A DNA stretch of 64,000 nt from Planctomycetota bacterium (GTDB taxonomy: Bacteria > Planctomycetota > Planctomycetia > Planctomycetales > Planctomycetaceae): contig JAHZKX010000045.1 in assembly GCA_022600195.1 (NCBI GenBank), positions 310,001 to 374,000 on the forward strand. Direction: 5' to 3'. Made by a program: the position numbers and the translations under genes. The notes under the pieces were generated by a model. It worked only from the letters and a program-made list of their open reading frames with translations. It made no database searches and was not told where the DNA came from. Shown here one piece after another: positions 53,336 through 62,535 of the stretch (its first letter is position 1; each line of letters opens with the position of its first letter).

Positions 53336-55927
53336 ATGCAAGCCAAACGAACTCTATTCACGTTTGCCTTCCGGTGTTCTCTGCTAATTTCAATCGCTTT
53401 ATTGGGTGCAGTGACTTCGCTGCAGGCACAAACGAAGCCCATCAAAACAGGCTTTGTCAATGCCGTTTATAAAGATGCGACTGGCGAACATCGCTACGTC
53501 GTATTTATTCCCAAAAGCTATTCGCCCGAAAAAAAATATCCGGTGATTCTGTTTCTGCACGGTGCCGGTGAGCGAGGCAGTGATGGTTTGAAACAGACGT
53601 TAGTCGGTTTAGGTCCGATTGTGAAACAGCAGGCGAGTGACTTTCCGTTCGTCGTTGTTTTCCCCCAGGCAGAGAATATGAAAGAACTGTTGCGGGGAGG
53701 TTGGTTGGCAGAAACGGGTGACAGTAAACGGGCACTGCAGATTCTGGATACCGTGATGAAAGATTATTCAATCGACTCTAAGCAGCAAATATTAACTGGT
53801 TGGTCTATGGGCGGTTATGGTGCCTGGAGTCTGGCGGCCGCGTTTCCGAAACGCTGGTCGGCGGTTGCTCCCCTGTCAGGTGGAGGAAAATCAGAATTGG
53901 CTGCCAATTTGAAACAGGTTCCCATCTGGGCCTTTCATGGCGCAAAAGATCGTGCAGTACTTCCAGCGGAATCAAAGCAGATCGTTGATGCCGTTAAGCA
54001 GGCTGGAGGCAATCCGCGTTATACGCTAGTTCCGGATGCGGGTCATGATGTCTGGAAAGTCGCTTATACGAAACCACTATTCGATTGGATGCAGAATCCG
54101 TCGCTCATGATTGATTCTTCTGCGCCACTACTTGTCAAACCAGATCAGAAAGCACCAACGGAAGCTGGTGCCGAAACTCCGTTTGTACCGGAATTGATCA
54201 TTGATGATGCGGTCTCTGTACGGTTAGGAAACCAGTTCTTACAGTCATTGGCTGACGCCGTTCCCAGTATGGTTCCCAAAGATATGCTGGTTGGTAATAT
54301 CAATGATATTTACGATTCAACCGTGGCACAGGGGCGTAGTTTCTCGGTCCAATTTTCCGGGATTTCCTATCGGGGGGAATTAGCCCGGGCTGCGATTCAG
54401 GCTTACGCTGCTGGAACGCTCAACATCCAACTTGGCATTCAAAAGGTGAATCTCTCGATTGGCACGACCTATGTCTCTGGTAATCGACATTCGGCTGTCG
54501 CGGGGCCGATTTCCGTAAGTGTCGGCTATCAGCGGCCGGTCTGGTTAAGTTTTGATGTGAAACCTTATATCAAGGACAATCGGATTCGATTACGCCTGTT
54601 ACGCTCTCGCTTTAACATCCCACACGATAATTGGGATGTCTCAGGGCCCTATGGCGTTTCCACCCGAGGTATCGGGATGACTTCGGAAAGAGTTTCCAGT
54701 GGACTGGTCGATGGAATTTATGGCAGCAAAGGGCGTATTGAAGACGAAGTGAAGGCAATCGTCCCGGGACTGGTAGATGAGCTGGAAAAACAGTTGAACT
54801 TTGACGAAGCCAGTCAGGTTGTCGATGCCATTTGGCCTTTGCCCGTTTATCATCCGCGGATGAGACTGACACCCAATCAGGTATTAACGGACAAAAAAGG
54901 AATTTCATTGAGCTTCGGTCTTACAGTCGCTGCATTGGATTCCACCAAACCCAAAGCAGAAGTGAAGCGGCTGTCGACAGTCGGTCGATCAGTAGAAGAA
55001 ATTCCCAAAGTGACAGAATTACAGATTGGTGTTGCTCCAGGTATGCTGAAACCATTAACCAACATGCTGGTTAAGGCGGATATAGCCAGAATTCCCGTGC
55101 TGGATATCCCCGGTCATTCTTTCGACGCATTGGCAGATCCGAAATCATTACAGCAGGCATTTCCTGACTTGAAACAGTATGGCTCTGATTTCAAAATCTG
55201 GTCCGAACTTGTTTTGACCAAGCCCATTCAAGTGGACGACCCAGGTAAGCCCAACAAACCAGGCAGCAATCCTTTCCAGTTTGTTGTGCCACAAGCCGCG
55301 ATTTCTATGGCAATAAAAAAAACAGCCTCTGATAAAGATTGGATTCCCTATGCAGAATTTTCCCTTTCGGTGAATCAGAATGTCGAGCCGCAAATTATCG
55401 ATCGCAGTTATTCTAAACGTGCTCTGCGTCTGAATTGGGAAGGAAGTTCTCGTTTAGATGGGAGCGCTCGATTTGCGCCGGGGTACAAACCAAAGAATTC
55501 CCAGATCGATCAGAAAAAATTTCAGGATCTGGTACAGGCTGCCTGGGATGGCTGGACTAAACAGGGGCCCGCTTCAGTCGCAGCGATTCCTGACATCGAG
55601 CTCGGTTTCGGTCGCTATCGTGTGAAGCAGGTCAACTGGTCTTCCCCGCAATTGCTGGCCACATTTTCTGTACCGGAACTCAAGATTACAAATAAAACCA
55701 AGGTAGAACTGGAATACGAACTGAAAAGCCCTTACAGCGATTGGGGCGGTCCCTATAAGTTGAAACCGGGAGCTTCTCATGCTTTCGATGCAGCTACACC
55801 ACTTACGTATAGACGTAAGGTAAACAATCGCATGCAGGTAAATACACTGGCTGCCGGTTCGCATTATGAATTCTATCCGGAGGAAGGTCCGCAGAAAGCA
55901 ATGCTCTTTGAAGCATCCGATAATTAA
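53336..55927 (+). CDS. secreted alpha/beta-hydrolase (esterase/peptidase-like) with large uncharacterised C-terminal region
   Basis: A signal peptide (residues 1-33, ending SLQAQ) is followed by an alpha/beta-hydrolase domain (about 40-265): VILFLHGAGERGSDG is the oxyanion region, S157 is the nucleophile in TGWSMGGYGAW, D205 lies in GAKDRAV and H237 in DAGHDVW, a complete triad of the feruloyl-esterase/PHB-depolymerase type. Residues about 290-863 are not recognised. They are beta-rich with amphipathic strands (FSVQFSGISYRGEL, LNIQLGIQKVNLSIG), a helical part (IEDEVKAIVPGLVDELEKQL) and a second half that repeats the pattern, which reminds me of TULIP-like lipid-binding folds; this is speculation. 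Its stop at 55927 abuts the stop of the convergent NuoM/N-like gene with no base between. Confidence 0.82.
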   Translation: MQAKRTLFTFAFRCSLLISIALLGAVTSLQAQTKPIKTGFVNAVYKDATGEHRYVVFIPKSYSPEKKYPVILFLHGAGERGSDGLKQTLVGLGPIVKQQASDFPFVVVFPQAENMKELLRGGWLAETGDSKRALQILDTVMKDYSIDSKQQILTGWSMGGYGAWSLAAAFPKRWSAVAPLSGGGKSELAANLKQVPIWAFHGAKDRAVLPAESKQIVDAVKQAGGNPRYTLVPDAGHDVWKVAYTKPLFDWMQNPSLMIDSSAPLLVKPDQKAPTEAGAETPFVPELIIDDAVSVRLGNQFLQSLADAVPSMVPKDMLVGNINDIYDSTVAQGRSFSVQFSGISYRGELARAAIQAYAAGTLNIQLGIQKVNLSIGTTYVSGNRHSAVAGPISVSVGYQRPVWLSFDVKPYIKDNRIRLRLLRSRFNIPHDNWDVSGPYGVSTRGIGMTSERVSSGLVDGIYGSKGRIEDEVKAIVPGLVDELEKQLNFDEASQVVDAIWPLPVYHPRMRLTPNQVLTDKKGISLSFGLTVAALDSTKPKAEVKRLSTVGRSVEEIPKVTELQIGVAPGMLKPLTNMLVKADIARIPVLDIPGHSFDALADPKSLQQAFPDLKQYGSDFKIWSELVLTKPIQVDDPGKPNKPGSNPFQFVVPQAAISMAIKKTASDKDWIPYAEFSLSVNQNVEPQIIDRSYSKRALRLNWEGSSRLDGSARFAPGYKPKNSQIDQKKFQDLVQAAWDGWTKQGPASVAAIPDIELGFGRYRVKQVNWSSPQLLATFSVPELKITNKTKVELEYELKSPYSDWGGPYKLKPGASHAFDAATPLTYRRKVNNRMQVNTLAAGSHYEFYPEEGPQKAMLFEASDN

Positions 55928-57583
55928 TCAGTTTTCTTCGGAGGGGATTTCGGCAGAGTGGGCTGTCATTTCGTTGAGGGGAAATAACGTTTTTTCCAGC
56001 AGTGTGGCTGGGGAAACGCCGATCACAATTATTAGCAGAACAGCAGGGCTGAGCGAGAGCCAGACAAGTCCCACGTTTTCGTTCGGCAGACTGCTTGTTT
56101 TGCGATCAATGGAAATTAAGTCTCTGCGATCTATGTTTACAAGCTTCCAGAGTGAACGGATCAGCGCGAGATTAAACAGCAGTGTGCCCGTTAAATAACA
56201 CGTTGCGAGTAGCATATTCTGGTTTGCCAGACTCCAGAGGAATGTCAATTGCGCTGTGAATCCCCCCAGACCCGGAACGCCGATGAGTGTCAGTACCGAC
56301 AGAGAACAAATCCAGAGAAGCAGTTTACCAGAGCCGTTGCCAGAGTCTGAAGTGATGAGAGGCACGATAAGTAAAATTAGACAGCAGGCGAGTCCCTGAA
56401 CCACGTTTAATAAAATGAAATTCGGAACCATTGCTGGTTCCGCGCCAAACAGGACGGTCAATGTCAACGAGGTCTGTCCAATCAGAAACCAGACAACAAT
56501 CTGTAATAGATCTTTTCGCAGGCTGGCAAGCAGCGACGTCAAAAGAAAGCCACTCATTCCCCAGAAAGTCAGTAATGAATACAGGCTCGAGCCAACTTCA
56601 GAATTGAGGGGCATCATGAATCGAATCATCCCATAGATACTGATCTTTGTGAGTAATGCCAGCAATAGCAGATACCAGCCAACCATATCAGGCCTTGAAC
56701 TGCGGTGGAGAGAAGTGAACGTCAACCACTGTGTTAATCCAAAATGCACAGGAAACAGAGCCCCTTTGATAGCAAATCCAGCCAGTAGTAGCAGAAAAAT
56801 CCAAGGAGAAACGGTGCTCCAATAGGTTGCCGCGAGTGAATAACGCATGATGTCGCTGGCGGTACCCTGTAACAGATCATGAAATTGAAATGTGACTGCC
56901 TGCGGTGCTTCCAGCAGCAGACTCTGCATCCAGGAATAAGCAACAGCGGCCAACAGCAGCCCGCCGATGATCAAGGCGTCACCGAGAAACTGCAGGTACA
57001 TCGTGCTCTCAAATACGATCTGCGATCGGGCACCGCTCACAATACGAATCAGGCAGAGTATGCAAAACGTAGTCAGCAGCAAAAATGTAATAAAACTGAT
57101 GAGATCATGTGAAACGAACATCCCTGCTATTAAGGCCTGCAACATCAACAGTAGAAAATAAAACAAACGAGATGTAGTTGCGATGCGGCTGGAAAACAAA
57201 ATTAAAAAAGGCCAGAGACAGGTGGGCAGCAGCAGAAACCAGACCGAAGTGGTATCGAGGGCCATTTGAATGGCGCGTGGATGTGTTATTTCGAAATCAG
57301 CATCGGTGCGGGCATAGGAGTCAGTTGTACTGGGCAGTTTTAAACTTACAGAAATCAGGCGGGTTGTTCGTTCCTCGCTTTCTCCACTTCCTTTCCGCAG
57401 AGAGGGAGCAAACATTACCACGACCAGGATCAAACAGGAGACCAACGTATTGGAAAATGCGGTCCAGCGATTGAATTCCAGCCCGCCTCTCGAAACGCCC
57501 CATCCAATACAGGCACCCACTACCGGCATTACAACCAGTAACACGGGCGATAGCGAGATAATGGCATTCAGAAATGAGTTCAT
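55928..57583 (-). CDS. NuoM/NuoN-like antiporter-type membrane subunit (orphan complex I-like cluster)
   Basis: A 551-residue protein of about 14 hydrophobic segments from the proton-antiporter family (NuoL/M/N, Mrp). The best match is WIFLLLLAGFAIKGALFPVH, equivalent to the complex I motif F-A-x-K-x-P-L-F-P-x-H, so the central lysine (K273) is kept; K313 in LLTKISIYGMIRF matches a second conserved lysine, and GVPGLGGFTAQLTFLW matches the late P-G-F-x-x-E-F region. The TM5 glutamate equivalent reads L169 in LISFITFLLLTTF. The N-terminus carries an unusual 50-residue soluble loop. It is the last gene of a six-gene operon; a 57-base gap separates it from the NuoL-like gene. Confidence 0.8.
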   Translation of the reverse strand: MNSFLNAIISLSPVLLVVMPVVGACIGWGVSRGGLEFNRWTAFSNTLVSCLILVVVMFAPSLRKGSGESEERTTRLISVSLKLPSTTDSYARTDADFEITHPRAIQMALDTTSVWFLLLPTCLWPFLILFSSRIATTSRLFYFLLLMLQALIAGMFVSHDLISFITFLLLTTFCILCLIRIVSGARSQIVFESTMYLQFLGDALIIGGLLLAAVAYSWMQSLLLEAPQAVTFQFHDLLQGTASDIMRYSLAATYWSTVSPWIFLLLLAGFAIKGALFPVHFGLTQWLTFTSLHRSSRPDMVGWYLLLLALLTKISIYGMIRFMMPLNSEVGSSLYSLLTFWGMSGFLLTSLLASLRKDLLQIVVWFLIGQTSLTLTVLFGAEPAMVPNFILLNVVQGLACCLILLIVPLITSDSGNGSGKLLLWICSLSVLTLIGVPGLGGFTAQLTFLWSLANQNMLLATCYLTGTLLFNLALIRSLWKLVNIDRRDLISIDRKTSSLPNENVGLVWLSLSPAVLLIIVIGVSPATLLEKTLFPLNEMTAHSAEIPSEEN

Positions 57584-57640
57584 AATTGGCTCTGCAGTAA
57601 AATCGATTCAGCAACAAGCGTCGTTAGAAAGAAACAGGGT

Positions 57641-59527
57641 TTAAACCTGCAATACCATTAGTACAAAAATCAACACGGAAAGAGTAAACAGCAAAACCAG
57701 AGTCTGAAACGTAATCTGACCATTTTGCATCTGTACTAACAGAGTTCCCCAATACTCGGGTGTTTTTTCCAGCGAAGCGCGACTGAACCGATTGAGTAGC
57801 CATTCATCAAACAGCGAGACGATTTTCGCAAAGAAATGCAGTGGACCAATAAAAGTTCGTTTGAGAATGGTTAATGCATAATAGTGGGACTGTCCCAATT
57901 GGATCAGTGCAGACTGCGGTTGCTCTCTCGATTTGCGGAGATTTTTTTCACGCGAGGTCATCCAGGCCAGGATCAGTGCTACGAGGATCGTCAAACAAAA
58001 CAGGTTGCAAAAGAACCAGTCCCGATCAAAGGGGTTTTCGTGTAGATCTGTCATCAATCCAGGCCAGAGTTGCTGAATGAACGGGACTGGTATGTAAAGC
58101 GAAGCACTCGCCAAACTGATGAAAATAGTGATTGCCCACAAAGGCAGCACAGAAAAATGCTGAGGAGGAGTCGTAGGCTCAAATCTGTCAAACAGAGAGA
58201 AATAAAATCGTGATGCTCCAAAAACGAATCCCGCAGCGATCAATGGTATGAGCCAGACCAGGAATTCACTGCGAAGGTCAGTTGCCGCAGCTCTGGCGGT
58301 GACTAAAGGATTCAGTAAATTGCCCAGGCTGACCAATACGGAAATCATCAGCAGTAGAATACAGATTTTGGTGGAAGCAAGAGACTGCGCAGGCAGGGAG
58401 CCGTTCTGCAGTCGAATATGGAGAGGAATCAAAACCGCAATCACGCAGGTCTGCAGTAGAATCATTGGTAAAATCAGTTGCAAGGTATGGCTTGCATTCA
58501 TGCCGAGTATTGCAGTTGCCACGCCCGCCATCGTGGCAGAAATCCAGCATAGAAAGCGATCATGGTGTAAGCCGTGCGCGAGAGTGACCACTGAAAAAAC
58601 CGTTAGCAATGCAGAGACGGTTCCCAGCTGAAAGAGAAGTCTCTGGTTAGAGGGAATCGACAGAAAAAAAGGTGCAAAACGGAGCAATAAAAAAAGTCCT
58701 GCAGGAATCGCCATCAAATTCAACACGGCCAGCGAGCTGGTGCGCCACGGACTTTGATTGCCAATAATGAGCATCGAAGCAGGGAACAATCCCAGTCGTG
58801 GTAACGCGGCAAAAAAGAGGGCCGCCCCGATACCAGGCAGTGCAGTCGTGTTTTTTGCCTGGACCTCTCGAATTGCATCAGGTGAAAGGCAGGAGAGAAA
58901 ATCGAATGATTCAAAGTTGGTGCCGATTAAAAAAATTGCCAGCAACAGCATCCCATCCGAAAACGTATTCCAGCCCCACCAGTGTCTATCTTGTTTTTCT
59001 GGTGGGGTATCAGAGTCAAAATTGACTTCATGTAACAGATTCATGCTCATCGACAGCATAAACCAGAACAGGAGTAATTGCAGGAAATTGGTCGAAAGCA
59101 CAATGCCCATCGTTGCGAAGAAACAGAGTAAAAACAGCAACGGGGAATATCTATTATCGGACGGGGAAGCGGGAGTTGTGGCAACGAAATAGTCCAATAC
59201 TACATAAAACAGCGATGCCAGCGAGATTAGCAGATAAAATGAAAGACTGAGTGGGTCAAACAGCACTCCAATTTGCAAACTTGACTCAGGCACACTCGAA
59301 AGTGAAAGCCAGCTGATCAAAGTTTGAGAATATGATTGACTCTGAATAGTCGAGCTGAAAAAAATCAGGGAACCAAGTGCCGTCACAGAGGTCAGAAACA
59401 CGCCGATGAATACAGGCCAGCGCAAGTGACCTTTTAAAATGCGAAATCCTACCAGTGCAGCGACAATCACCATTGCAAATGGAATGATCAAGCTCAGTTG
59501 AAGTAATAGCGTGATCGTTTTATCCAC
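57641..59527 (-). CDS. NuoL-like antiporter-type membrane subunit (orphan complex I-like cluster)
   Basis: A 628-residue polytopic protein; NuoL length and layout, including VLFDPLSLSFYLLISLASLFYVV (the D-x-L-S region near residue 91), TNFLQLLLFWFMLSM, DGMLLLAIFLIGTNF and FFAALPRLGLFPASMLI, followed by a long C-terminal part after residue 500 that may form the lateral helix. Residues central to proton transfer differ from canonical NuoL: the TM5 glutamate is F156, the TM7 lysine is R244, and the nearby histidine of the L-I-H-A-A motif is replaced. The start is GTG 59527, and it overlaps the upstream NuoK-like gene by eight bases. Identity to NuoL is low and the call rests on hydropathy plus these motifs. 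Confidence 0.8.
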   Translation of the reverse strand: MDKTITLLLQLSLIIPFAMVIVAALVGFRILKGHLRWPVFIGVFLTSVTALGSLIFFSSTIQSQSYSQTLISWLSLSSVPESSLQIGVLFDPLSLSFYLLISLASLFYVVLDYFVATTPASPSDNRYSPLLFLLCFFATMGIVLSTNFLQLLLFWFMLSMSMNLLHEVNFDSDTPPEKQDRHWWGWNTFSDGMLLLAIFLIGTNFESFDFLSCLSPDAIREVQAKNTTALPGIGAALFFAALPRLGLFPASMLIIGNQSPWRTSSLAVLNLMAIPAGLFLLLRFAPFFLSIPSNQRLLFQLGTVSALLTVFSVVTLAHGLHHDRFLCWISATMAGVATAILGMNASHTLQLILPMILLQTCVIAVLIPLHIRLQNGSLPAQSLASTKICILLLMISVLVSLGNLLNPLVTARAAATDLRSEFLVWLIPLIAAGFVFGASRFYFSLFDRFEPTTPPQHFSVLPLWAITIFISLASASLYIPVPFIQQLWPGLMTDLHENPFDRDWFFCNLFCLTILVALILAWMTSREKNLRKSREQPQSALIQLGQSHYYALTILKRTFIGPLHFFAKIVSLFDEWLLNRFSRASLEKTPEYWGTLLVQMQNGQITFQTLVLLFTLSVLIFVLMVLQV

Positions 59528-59864
59528 GCGGGTGAGATCCTTCCCGAGTCAATAGGTCGCTTTGCTGTGTATTGGATTCCGGTTTCTCTGAAGTCTTGTG
59601 TCTTTGAAAAATCAACGCCGCCATCGTGATCAGCAAAGTCATCACGATCAATAGTATGATCAGGAAGTAGAGCTGACTCTCGCGCGATCCCTGATTTTGA
59701 CTGTAAGAGAAAAAAACGAGACCTGCGCCCTGTAACCAGAGTAGTAACGAGAAAACCATTGCCAGCGGATTCCGCTGCAGTAGCATCCCCAGGAAACCGA
59801 GCACGATCAGTGTGATGGCAATCAGCAGATTATTATGTAATAGAGGTGCGGAAGAGAGCAGCAT
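59520..59864 (-). CDS. NuoK-like small membrane subunit
   Basis: A 114-residue protein with three hydrophobic segments. Segment 1-2 reads LIVLGFLGMLLQRNPLAMVFSLLLWLQGAGLVFF, closely following the NuoK pattern G-x-x-G-x-x-x-R-R-N-x-x-x-M-x-x-G-x-E. The conserved glutamate of NuoK (E36) corresponds to L41 here, and the second (E72) to the uncharged run LLIVMTLLITMAALIF. A hydrophilic C-terminal tail (about 25 residues) is longer than usual. It starts one base after the upstream gene stop and overlaps the NuoL-like gene by eight bases. An Mrp C-type subunit is the alternative call. Confidence 0.75.
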   Translation of the reverse strand: MLLSSAPLLHNNLLIAITLIVLGFLGMLLQRNPLAMVFSLLLWLQGAGLVFFSYSQNQGSRESQLYFLIILLIVMTLLITMAALIFQRHKTSEKPESNTQQSDLLTREGSHPRG

Positions 59865-59865
59865 T

Positions 59866-60651
59866 TTAATGGACCTTCTTCTGTTCGACGATCAAACGGG
59901 AAATTCCCACAAATGAAACCGCGACAAACAGCATTAGCAAAATGAAGGTCGGCCAATTCTCCATTAAAAACGGTTGTGTCAACTCTGGTCCTTCAACGTG
60001 AGTTGCTGGTGTTGAAGTCGACCATCTCGGATTGATCTGTGTTGATGGAGAATTCCACTCCCGATGCACTACCCAGAGGCAACAGCAAAGCAGTAAGCCA
60101 CAGACCAGACAGGCAAGAAATGGTTCTCGAAATGGCTGTTCTGAATTGTTGTGTTCAATGTCTTGGTTATTATTTGAAATACCCTGGTTAAGAAATAGCA
60201 ATACGGATCCTCCCAGAATCATCCAGCAAAGCAAAACCAGAGGCAGCACATCCGCTTGAAGAAAAAGCAAACCGCTGTTGAGAAAGGAGATCGTTGCTGC
60301 ACTGACTGCCCATTTCAAGTTCGAAGACAGGACTGCAACCGCGCCAGATGCGATCACAGTCATTCCAATTAAAAATGGACTGATCAGAATTACAAACTCC
60401 CTGAAGTGACTTGTGGATTTTTCAGAGAGAGGTTGTCCAAACCAAAGAAATAGAACCGCTAATGCAGCTAGAGAGAATGCAGGCCAACCCCATCGTCTTT
60501 TTGGTAATGTAGTGACGTTTGTTTTCAGCTGGTTACTTAAAGAACCGTAGATGCCAGTGATCATCAGTAGGACCAGGACAACCAGCGTAAAGAATTGCAG
60601 GTTGTCAGCAGTGCCTGGCAGGTAAAATAAAAGTTCATTCATCACAGACAT
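59866..60651 (-). CDS. NuoJ-like membrane subunit
   Basis: A 261-residue protein with about six hydrophobic segments. Residues 85-155 resemble NuoJ: MTVIASGAVAVLSSNLKWAV, then SFLNSGLLFL, and ADVLPLVLLCWMILGGSVLLFL, which parallels the NuoJ segment A-E-F-L-x-x-x-x-x-x-V-Y-x-G-A-x-x-V-L-F-L. The usual Y/V-G of that helix is changed to MILGG. An extended N-terminus (about 80 residues with two segments) and a hydrophilic periplasmic loop (NSPSTQINPRWST region) are additions. It is third in the operon, five bases after the H-like gene. Confidence 0.65.
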   Translation of the reverse strand: MSVMNELLFYLPGTADNLQFFTLVVLVLLMITGIYGSLSNQLKTNVTTLPKRRWGWPAFSLAALAVLFLWFGQPLSEKSTSHFREFVILISPFLIGMTVIASGAVAVLSSNLKWAVSAATISFLNSGLLFLQADVLPLVLLCWMILGGSVLLFLNQGISNNNQDIEHNNSEQPFREPFLACLVCGLLLCCCLWVVHREWNSPSTQINPRWSTSTPATHVEGPELTQPFLMENWPTFILLMLFVAVSFVGISRLIVEQKKVH

Positions 60652-60656
60652 GGTTT

Positions 60657-61676
60657 CTAAGAAGGGATTGAGGAATTACTCTTGAAGTTCTTGGTCTGCT
60701 TAAGGTTCCCTTTTGGTGCGATAAATCCGATCCAAATGGCCAGCAAACTGAAATTCAGTAAAACATGCATTAAAGGATCCGATGTTCCAAGAACATGAAA
60801 CGCAACGAAGGAAGATGTTACCGAAATCATTGATAACCATAGTGTGATCTTCCAGAGTCGTTCTGTATTGAGATTACGTTGTCTCCTTAAAAATTTTTTG
60901 AGTCTTAACACAATGACCATCAAAACGAGTAGTAGTATCACCTGGGCTGCAATCCCTGCAATCTCAGCTGGTGAAAAGTGTTCGTTGACAGGAGAAAAAC
61001 AACTGCGTCCGTAAATCAGTGGAATAATGATTGAGAGACCGACAATCATCCGCAGTTCACGAATCCAGGTATGAATGGGGCTCACCGGGAAGAGCGCACG
61101 CGCGTTGATGATTAAGTAGGGGCCGATCAAAGCAAGCGCAAGAGCAAGACAACCTGCTGGTTGTAGCATACCAAGCCATATTGATGATCCCGAATCTTTT
61201 ATAATGTGGCTGAGGTCAACGGGAAGATAAGGGGCGAGTGATGACCACGCCATTAAGAGAGGCAGCCAGAAATAGCTATTGAGCACCATCATCGCGGAGG
61301 AATTTTGTCTCTCTGTCAAAGCCTGACTGATTTCACCAGCTACCTGCAATAAAATAAGTAATCCCAGATAGACCAGTGGTGCATTATGGCTCTTCACTAG
61401 TACAGCCGCTTCAGATTGCTGGAAAAATGGAGGCAAAAACAGAGTTATATACGGGATGTAGACGCCGACGGATAGTACACAACACACTAACGAAAAAAAT
61501 AATAGACCATATTGCCGCACATCATGAAGATGTTGTTGTGCGAGCGAGATTCGACGCAGCGAATCCAGAAGACGTGTTTTGGCACTTCGATTGACTGGAG
61601 AATAGGTAATTTCTGCTAACAGGAATGACAGGATTAGAAGCAGGAATAAGAAAAAAAGCGTCATCAAATAGATCAT
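60657..61676 (-). CDS. NuoH-like membrane subunit (diverged)
   Basis: A 339-residue membrane protein of about eight to nine segments. Its length, its position in the operon and the segment QPAGCLALALALIGPYLI followed by a C-terminal RRQRNLNTERLWKITLWLSMISVTSSF (compare NuoH R-x-R-Y-D-Q-L-M-x-x-x-W-K-x-x-L-P) point to NuoH. However, the N-terminal E-R-R-x-x-x-R-x-Q-x-R-x-G-P-N quinone-site region cannot be found; the corresponding cytoplasmic stretch reads NRSAKTRLLDSLRRISLAQ. If it is NuoH-derived, it has lost the quinone-binding sequence. The start overlaps the previous stop (TGATG). The assignment is tentative. Confidence 0.5.
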   Translation of the reverse strand: MIYLMTLFFLFLLLILSFLLAEITYSPVNRSAKTRLLDSLRRISLAQQHLHDVRQYGLLFFSLVCCVLSVGVYIPYITLFLPPFFQQSEAAVLVKSHNAPLVYLGLLILLQVAGEISQALTERQNSSAMMVLNSYFWLPLLMAWSSLAPYLPVDLSHIIKDSGSSIWLGMLQPAGCLALALALIGPYLIINARALFPVSPIHTWIRELRMIVGLSIIIPLIYGRSCFSPVNEHFSPAEIAGIAAQVILLLVLMVIVLRLKKFLRRQRNLNTERLWKITLWLSMISVTSSFVAFHVLGTSDPLMHVLLNFSLLAIWIGFIAPKGNLKQTKNFKSNSSIPS

Positions 61677-62122
61677 CAGGACGTCTCCTTCGGATCTATT
61701 GTGTGCTGAACCTCACTGGACTCCTTTGCAGTCGGTTCAGAGAACTCAGGCAGAGGTATTTGATTTTCCAACGGAGACTGTTTAGGAAATGCCAGCATAC
61801 CTGACCAGAACGCCATTCCCCAGATTAAAGCCAGAGCTACCGCAAGTGTGCCGGTGACAGGATTAATGAGAGAAGTGATTTCGGCGAAAAATCCCAACGT
61901 CAGGATTAGAGTAGGAATCACAATTAATGTTGCAGTGAAGTTCCAATACAAATGTGGTGTTTGATCAGAGGATCCAGTGTCAGTCGTTAGAAAATTCTCT
62001 GGTTCAGCTAAAACCGGCTCCGAGAGCGTCGAAACACGAAATCCCACTTTGATCGTGAACCATACCACCAGCGTGCAAAGCGCCGCGATCAGAATATAAA
62101 TCAGAAAGGCAAACCATTCCAT
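61676..62122 (-). CDS. three-helix membrane protein, first gene of the complex I-like cluster (NuoA-like position)
   Basis: A 148-residue protein with three hydrophobic segments (residues 5-28, 63-85 and 92-112), a long hydrophilic loop between the first two and an acidic C-terminal tail. This is the size and topology of NuoA, and it stands first in an operon whose other members follow the complex I order, but I cannot see the NuoA signature (the Y-E-C-G motif in the loop is missing). The NuoA call is therefore from position only; it may be an unrelated accessory subunit. ATG at 62122; the stop overlaps the next start (TGATG). Confidence 0.5.
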   Translation of the reverse strand: MEWFAFLIYILIAALCTLVVWFTIKVGFRVSTLSEPVLAEPENFLTTDTGSSDQTPHLYWNFTATLIVIPTLILTLGFFAEITSLINPVTGTLAVALALIWGMAFWSGMLAFPKQSPLENQIPLPEFSEPTAKESSEVQHTIDPKETS

Positions 62123-62259
62123 GGCGGACTTTCAGGGAAGTAATCGTGTACAATCAAAATATCTACGGATGAAAAACAACCTCAGAACAAATTTTAAGGG
62201 ATCGACCCTGCGATGCGAAGTGTGTTGAGTCCTGCAAATCTTTCAATTAAGGAAAAGTA

Positions 62260-62535
62260 GTGGTCACTGATCCTTTACATGAATCGTTGCCCATTGAAAA
62301 ATTACGGAATCTGGGTCCGAAAAGCGCTCACTGGCTGGAACAGGTCGGAATTCGAACCCTGGCAGATCTCAAACAGACCGGTGCCATCGCCGCCTACCTG
62401 CTGGTAAAGCAACAGCAGCCGCGATGCAGCCTGAATTTGCTCTATGCCTTGCACGGAGCGCTGATGAACGTTCACTGGAACCAACTGTCTGAGAAAACCA
62501 GACAACTGCTGCGGGCAGCCGCCTATAATGAGTAA
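62260..62535 (+). CDS. TfoX C-terminal-domain protein
   Basis: A 91-residue protein made only of the TfoX/Sxy C-terminal domain: LPIEKLRNLGPKSAHWLEQVG, IRTLADLKQTGAIAAYLLVK and LNLLYALHGALMNVHWNQL. The domain is a helical, helix-hairpin-helix-like fold. Full TfoX regulates competence in gamma-proteobacteria, but stand-alone C-terminal domains occur widely with unknown roles. Start at GTG 62260, eight bases after AAGGA. The stop overlaps the start of the GGCT gene by eight bases, so the two are coupled. Confidence 0.88.
   Translation: MVTDPLHESLPIEKLRNLGPKSAHWLEQVGIRTLADLKQTGAIAAYLLVKQQQPRCSLNLLYALHGALMNVHWNQLSEKTRQLLRAAAYNE

Follow-up and report, generated by a model that had tools for sequence, protein, structure and literature searches.

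A complex I-type membrane arm with no main redox genes found in Gimesia, and similar orphan arms in other planctomycete genera

What use can a cell have for the membrane arm of respiratory complex I (NDH-1) when the main redox genes of the enzyme are not found in its genome? The question is raised by six consecutive minus-strand open reading frames at positions 55928-62122 of a 64,000-nucleotide stretch of planctomycete DNA (contig JAHZKX010000045.1; the whole stretch is called the window below), which encode proteins of 148, 339, 261, 114, 628, and 551 residues in the order A, H, J, K, L, and M. In the complex I relatives known to us, the membrane arm is coupled either to cation antiport or to a redox or hydrogenase reaction. 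A first-pass annotation of the window had proposed that this operon encodes a nuo-like membrane arm and nothing else of complex I. We consider the operon best explained as encoding the membrane arm of a complex I (A?-H-J-K-L-M), severed from redox chemistry and repurposed, with a probability of roughly 0.55.

Identity of the subunits

Four of the six proteins can be assigned by sequence profiles. M (55928..57583, minus strand, as are all six genes; 14 membrane spans predicted by hydropathy) and L (57641..59527; 15 spans) match the NuoM (8e-24) and NuoL (5.6e-20) models of NCBIfam, both far below the curated cut-offs, and a profile search of the Protein Data Bank (PDB) with M retrieved 8qby_M (9e-14). 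K (59520..59864; three spans) is the sole protein of the operon recognized by Pfam (PF00420, 5e-10) and retrieved NuoK from the PDB (2e-6). When genus alignments of all six proteins were compared profile to profile (hhalign) with canonical nuo proteins from the same family, M, L, K, and J (59866..60651; six spans) each matched best with their own canonical subunit, at local probabilities of 100, 99.9, 97.2, and 94.4%, respectively, and J reached 97% over 245 columns in a global comparison. By these profiles, M, L, K, and J are homologous to canonical nuo subunits, and the complex I similarity of J, K, and L on which the first-pass annotation depended is present. Searched against the PDB by profile, A, H, J, and L retrieved nothing of complex I, and the AlphaFold2 (AF2) model of J was of too poor quality to be used.

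The H-like protein (60657..61676; eight spans) was assigned through its predicted structure. Its local hhalign match was weak (12.5%), with canonical H as the best partner over 243 columns, and a forced global alignment to canonical H gave no result. The AF2 model of H (predicted local distance difference test score, 69.5; predicted template modeling score, 0.72) was compared with 350,542 chains using Foldseek, and ranks 1 to 4 and 6 to 8 were taken by ND1, NdhA, NuoH, or MBS-M chains, subunit names that we in part presume; rank 5 was an unrelated Mtr subunit. The ND1/NuoH-type matches had probabilities of 0.75 to 1.0, E values of 0.03 to 0.23 (none as low as 0.001), template modeling scores of 0.36 to 0.53, and root mean square deviations of 6.9 to 14.4. 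As modeled, H has a NuoH-like fold.

Redox partners in Gimesia genomes

The window genome (6.58 Mb in 84 contigs; 99.99% complete) was judged to belong to Gimesia from the likeness of its M to that of Gimesia contigs, one of which is 91% identical. Of 150 genomes of the family, 11 of them Gimesia, 131 have a NuoD (PF00346) match, but none was found in 17 Gimesia genomes (those 11 and six more, two of the six being only 74 to 76% complete). NuoF (PF01512), NuoC (PF00329), and canonical NuoH (PF00146) were each found in 0 of 11. No redox gene lies beside the operon, as had been pointed out, and NuoC, NuoD, and NuoF were not found in the rest of the genome or in the congeners searched. Nor was the nuoC/D part of a nuoBCDI set, which according to the first-pass annotation would have made this the normal complex I, found elsewhere in the genome, in a search that did not extend to NuoI, E, and G.

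One match to the NuoB family (PF01058) is present per genome in all 11 Gimesia. That of the window genome lies on a different contig from the operon (L085, G000:C17), inside a NiFe-hydrogenase cluster with maturation-type genes. A role for this "nuoB" as a complex I subunit was rejected; the order of the genes and their start sequences, inspected by eye in the window genome, led us to read it as the small subunit of a hydrogenase. From the similar match length, we infer that the NuoB-family match of the other ten Gimesia also sits in a hydrogenase cluster. A canonical complex I split across the genome was likewise rejected for Gimesia, with NuoC, D, F, and H not found and the NuoB match placed in that cluster.

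These observations bear on the possibility that the membrane arm borrows its peripheral arm, docking a redox module encoded elsewhere (hydrogenase subunits or another flavoprotein) in an unusual energy-converting complex. The NuoB-family protein and the NiFe-hydrogenase cluster would supply candidates, and hydrogenases and complex I share ancestry. However, the cluster resembles, by eye and in one genome, a soluble group 3-type hydrogenase with FAD/NAD-binding genes of its own, and a NuoB-family match of similar length also occurs in two family genomes that carry canonical nuo. The failure to find NuoC, D, and F in Gimesia, the loss of loop motifs from its A and H proteins, and the retention of only L-M-N or M in several genera, which leaves little for a peripheral arm to dock (both described below), argue in the same direction. 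A hidden peripheral arm in Gimesia is therefore unlikely, and the borrowed arm as a general explanation appears highly improbable.

PF03116, read as NqrB, is present in 11/11 Gimesia, and NADH oxidation there is presumably carried out by the Na+-translocating NADH:quinone oxidoreductase (Na+-NQR). A genome from another genus (G018, genus g19) has PF03116, and NuoB family, C, D, F, and H were not found in it, nor was an M-like match; keeping the arm is thus not automatic.

Channel and loop residues

For part of the channel positions considered here, the roles are ones that we presume. Others, such as those of E144/K234 in NuoM and K399 in NuoL, are taken from PMC9271201. In L, the TM7 (seventh transmembrane helix) Lys, present in 15/15 canonical rows, is replaced by Arg (Arg244, codon 58796..58798, minus strand) in 14/14 genus rows, which include one contig labeled Planctomycetaceae bacterium (L083); neither the TM5 Glu nor the TM12 Lys is left in any of the seven genus rows compared. 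K, with positions read from an alignment to Escherichia coli NuoK, has lost both channel Glu positions: the ELM-type Glu motif is found in 0/14 genus against 11/11 canonical sequences, the second Glu is gone in 7/7 genus rows, and the first 90 residues hold at most one acidic residue, at 55-63. The TM5 and TM12 Glu of M are missing in 7/7 genus rows.

The loop motifs tested in A and H gave a similar picture. The YE[CS]G motif of A occurs in 6/6 canonical and 0/14 Gimesia sequences, and the R.GPN motif of H occurs in 10/10 canonical NuoH and 0/14 Gimesia sequences; the latter was the only NuoH quinone-site pattern relied on, since the others matched just 1, 3, and 4 of the 10 canonical sequences and were judged too strict. 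In orphan arms, numerous sites with Gly, Pro, Trp, Arg, or Asp are conserved, in contrast to most channel residues. In sum, conserved channel Lys and Glu residues of complex I were not recovered in L, M, and K, save for the TM7 and TM8 Lys of M, and most proton-path residues have, judging from the alignments, been lost from the arm. The "ion-moving" role offered by the first-pass annotation becomes the weaker option, since most key proton-channel residues are gone.

Conservation and selection within Gimesia

Sought in planctomycete genomes, the same six-gene order was found in 10 Gimesia congeners, in each case with an esterase gene on one side and a GGCT-type gene on the other. Two further contigs (L081 and L082) hold the whole operon with both sides, one (L083) ends after M, and one (L084) begins inside L. 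The A-position gene is present in 13/13 fetched genus loci that reach that far. An H-like match was obtained in 16/17 Gimesia and in 0/153 other genomes of the order sample; the lone Gimesia without it is a 74% complete genome from which L is missing as well.

The ratio of nonsynonymous to synonymous substitution rates (dN/dS), computed with our own Nei-Gojobori script for seven pairs and six genes, ranged from 0.035 to 0.506 over all 42 values, some A, H, and J values in one pair being near saturation. Estimated in this way, the operon genes are under purifying selection. The reading frames are open in the genus loci that were read. An apparently broken H in G151, with one TGA counted at its edge, was set aside, since no interruption occurs within the part aligned to residues 17-333 of the window protein.

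An alternative to a maintained arm is a decaying remnant, the leftovers of a lost complex I on their way to becoming pseudogenes. Gene content that varies by genus, lost channel residues, and fast evolution would all suit decay. Against it stand the open frames, the intact body of H in G151, the dN/dS values of all 42 comparisons (and of 9/9 pairs of orphan M from other genera, given below), and the H-like gene in all Gimesia but one 74% complete genome. We regard decay as a very remote explanation.

Orphan arms in other genera

The arm of the window is not an isolated case, as the family has many orphan arms. We inspected the surroundings of 45 non-Gimesia M-like places chosen from a longer list, calling a place orphan when it held antiporter-type genes and canonical B, D, F, G, and I were unmatched in the fetched stretch by BLAST or profiles (C and E were not probed). 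By this definition, 28 places were orphan and 16 canonical; the contig of the remaining one (L075) was too short for a decision. The 28 orphan arms are spread over 15 genera of the family besides Gimesia. They range from A-H-J-K-L-M-N in g2, where A, H, and J are assigned by position only, through H-J-K-L-M-N in g24, where the canonical profile recognizes H (3e-14 and 7e-21), J-K-L-M-N in g51, K-L-M in g11 and g15, and L-M-N in g13, g21, g26, g36, and g56, to M with a weak L in g7 and M alone in g27, g32, g35, and g43. Several of these arms lie at contig ends (e.g., L087, L104, L115, and L116), and their gene content is a minimum.

Some places needed further evidence to be classed. L079 has a J-K-L-M-N context without a redox gene and an M inside the orphan clade, and it was counted as orphan. 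L078 and L092 (at contig ends) and L106 (J-K-L-M-N alone), whose fetched stretches hold few redox genes or none, were rejected as orphans and counted as canonical on account of their intact channel residues. In G001, from another genus, nuo genes are scattered (around 1.79 Mb for C/D, 3.08 Mb for H, and 4.61 Mb for B), so that gene context alone cannot prove orphan status. Besides an orphan arm, the same genome (L080, L086, and L088) seemingly holds two sets of complex I genes, of which one is dispersed along the chromosome.

The residue comparison covered 22 M, 11 L, and 6 K from the 28 arms; its MAFFT columns are unsure in the most diverged rows. Every compared row is damaged at at least one channel position. 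The TM7 Lys of L is replaced by Arg in 9/11 and by Ala and Gly in the remaining two, both from g24. M retains the TM7 Lys in 1/22, the TM8 Lys in 8/22, and the TM12 Glu in 4/22 rows, and its losses are thus not uniform. dN/dS of orphan M ranged from 0.134 to 0.270 in nine pairs.

In two genomes of g35 (L102 and L103), the lone M-like gene adjoins a large gene whose product, on inspection by eye, resembles a Ser/Thr protein kinase.

Origin of the orphan arms

Trees were built with IQ-TREE under LG+C20. In the L tree, 11 other-genus orphan L and 6 Gimesia L form one clade (100/100). An earlier M tree grouped all its orphans together with L079 (100/100), and a second M tree placed 16 other-genus orphan M and 4 Gimesia M in one clade (91/86, unstarred), 6 of the 22 non-Gimesia orphan M rows (L104, L111, L112, L114, L118, and L122) being left out of it. 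In the earlier tree, the orphans were nested within a single canonical M group, and in the second, all canonical M stood on one side (96/66), so the two trees differ as to the exact parent copy. The Lys-to-Arg change in L that most orphans have in common could be convergent, but may be read as further support for a single origin. Taken together, the trees suggest that the Gimesia arm and those of the other genera probably have a single origin.

A proposed redox-independent membrane complex

The reading that we prefer, a severed and repurposed membrane arm, would run as follows. One ancestral nuo copy of the family would have lost its peripheral arm, and its descendants would have diverged fast and lost different subunits by genus. 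The six Gimesia proteins would still assemble together, as the retention of numerous Gly, Pro, Trp, Arg, and Asp sites against the loss of channel residues suggests. The complex would lack canonical proton pumping, because in L the TM7 Lys is Arg and the TM5 Glu and TM12 Lys are lost, K is without either Glu, and the tested loop motifs of A and H are absent. Its most likely, if putative, role is that of a membrane scaffold, a regulator, or a sensor, and conduction of protons or cations through M would be residual at best. In its full form, the proposal is of a "pseudo-complex I": a membrane arm of the family that was exapted once into a redox-independent, pump-silent complex, ranging from seven subunits to M alone, and that is the sole complex I-type arm of Gimesia. 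This broader version is tentative, and we place it a little short of even odds.

If the proposal holds, such an arm would be useful in itself, its coupling partner and most of its channel residues being gone, and the family offers natural variants for sorting structural from pumping residues. Annotation is corrected as well, in that NuoK/L/M-type genes of Gimesia are no sign of complex I, which matters for planctomycete metabolic models.

Several observations weigh against a severed and repurposed arm. The A-position protein (61676..62122; three predicted spans) showed no detectable similarity to NuoA by Pfam, NCBIfam, PDB profiles, or hhalign, and its assignment rests on its first position in the operon and its three spans; the A-H-J-K-L-M identity first put forward therefore stands by profile for M, L, K, and J and by fold for H, and lacks sequence support for A. 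The neighboring esterase gene is more strongly constrained than the operon (dN/dS of 0.031 to 0.089 in six pairs). Apart from those of g24, almost every orphan sits on a long branch, for which treekit warns of false joins, and the single orphan clade may be partly an artifact; the outgroup of the L tree attached inside canonical L rows, which makes its root unsure. The TM5 Glu is retained in 8/22 other-genus orphan M. No partner gene common to the neighborhoods of different genera was noticed, although no systematic search was made. A NuoD match exists somewhere in 27/28 of the other orphan-arm genomes, G012 (g13) being the exception; the presence of NuoD also counts in favor of a borrowed peripheral arm and makes such borrowing possible outside Gimesia. 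Finally, Gimesia M retains both its TM7 Lys (Lys273, codon 56765..56767, minus strand) and its TM8 Lys (Lys313, codon 56645..56647, minus strand) in 15/15 genus rows, and conduction through it is possible.

The two lysines also speak for a redox-free, Mrp-like cation/proton antiporter, or a conductance through M (and the Arg in L). Mrp, too, has subunits of the L/M, K, and J types, and the window genome has no other strong match to PF00361. Proton conduction by antiporter modules of complex I, isolated and placed in proteoliposomes, is described in PMC11496545. Against an antiporter, the TM5 Glu of L and M, the TM12 Lys/Glu, and the Glu of K are lost in Gimesia, and the TM7 Lys of M is hardly kept in the other orphans. 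Ten other Gimesia carry further strong PF00361 genes and need not depend on the arm for antiport. An H-like subunit, moreover, is not known as part of Mrp. We think an antiporter or conductance unlikely, though not remote.

Relation to known systems

The arm resembles the NDH-1 of the same family in its A-H-J-K-L-M order, its homologous L, M, K, and J, and its NuoH-like H fold. It differs from it in that C, D, and F were not found in the genome, the NuoB family is represented only in the hydrogenase cluster, the operon is without N, G, or I, and channel and loop motif residues are mostly lost.

The Mrp (Mnh/Pha) antiporter is redox-free and has NuoL/M-, K-, and J-type subunits. The Gimesia arm is unlike it in having an H-like subunit and in the replacement of key Lys and Glu residues of L. 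Window L and M are without any Pfam match, including the Mrp-type PF00361 domain; the only PF00361 match of the window genome is weak (9.8e-5) and lies elsewhere, in a 395-residue frame, and M of three congeners weakly passes the PF00361 cut-off. MrpE, F, and G genes are absent from the six-gene operon and its unrelated flanks, the search not having been made genome-wide. Ech, Hyf, MBH, and MBS modules combine NuoH and antiporter-like subunits with NuoB/NuoD-type partners. An MBS subunit is among the structural matches of the H model, which may point to a likeness with these modules; NuoB/NuoD-type hydrogenase subunits of the Ech/Hyf/MBH kind were found neither in nor beside the operon. DabA (DUF2309) is not next to the NuoL-like gene, for which no genome-wide search was made either. 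The partner genes of complex I, Mrp, Hyf-type hydrogenases, and the DUF2309-NuoL system are thus absent at the locus, as first described.

A stand-alone arm is not in itself unprecedented. According to PMC3772326, Nitrosococcus oceani has a NuoAHJKLLMN "C I-membrane arm" (Noc0474-0481) as well as a complete nuo operon (Noc2552-2565), whose products the paper names "forward Complex I". The N. oceani cluster, likened here by architecture and not by sequence, is also a stand-alone set of A, H, J, K, L, and M-type genes without redox genes. Unlike that of Gimesia, it has two L genes and N, and the full nuo operon there could lend a peripheral arm. To call the window arm a new kind of complex, as had been suggested, was too strong for its architecture alone, because the N. 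oceani arm is already published. Another parallel is the planctomycete Stieleria sp. SV_7m_r, reported in PMC11588811 to be without NDH-1, with one nuoL kept and Nqr present. It, too, would have lost complex I, with Nqr as the presumed replacement and an antiporter-type gene left over; unlike Gimesia, it belongs to a different order, and only nuoL is reported, by annotation. No published description of Gimesia or planctomycete orphan arms was seen in the titles and abstract openings of the matches listed. Chadwick and colleagues have reportedly worked on unusual complex I homologs.

Locus organization

The coordinates and tight spacing of the six genes first described were reproduced: from A to M, the junctions are a 1-base overlap, a 5-base gap, a 1-base gap, an 8-base overlap, and a 57-base gap. 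Pfam agrees with the identity of the flanking genes, both on the opposite strand and unrelated to the arm. On one side, an 863-residue esterase-domain protein (53336-55927) ends next to M, and this protein is 73 to 95% identical at the same place in those genus loci that extend far enough to include it. On the other, a gene for a protein with a TfoX C-terminal domain starts at 62260, and its counterpart was found in 4/10 of the congeners with the identical order. The divergent intergenic region on the upstream side of the operon (62123..62259) is partly conserved across six aligned genus loci; conserved bases are present, and a clear regulator site was not found in that alignment. When L081:3955-6203, from a close Gimesia, was compared with window 59866-62122, A, H, and J were just 57 to 69% identical, and K, L, M, and both flanks were 91 to 95% identical, as if the A-H-J part of L081 had been exchanged through recombination.

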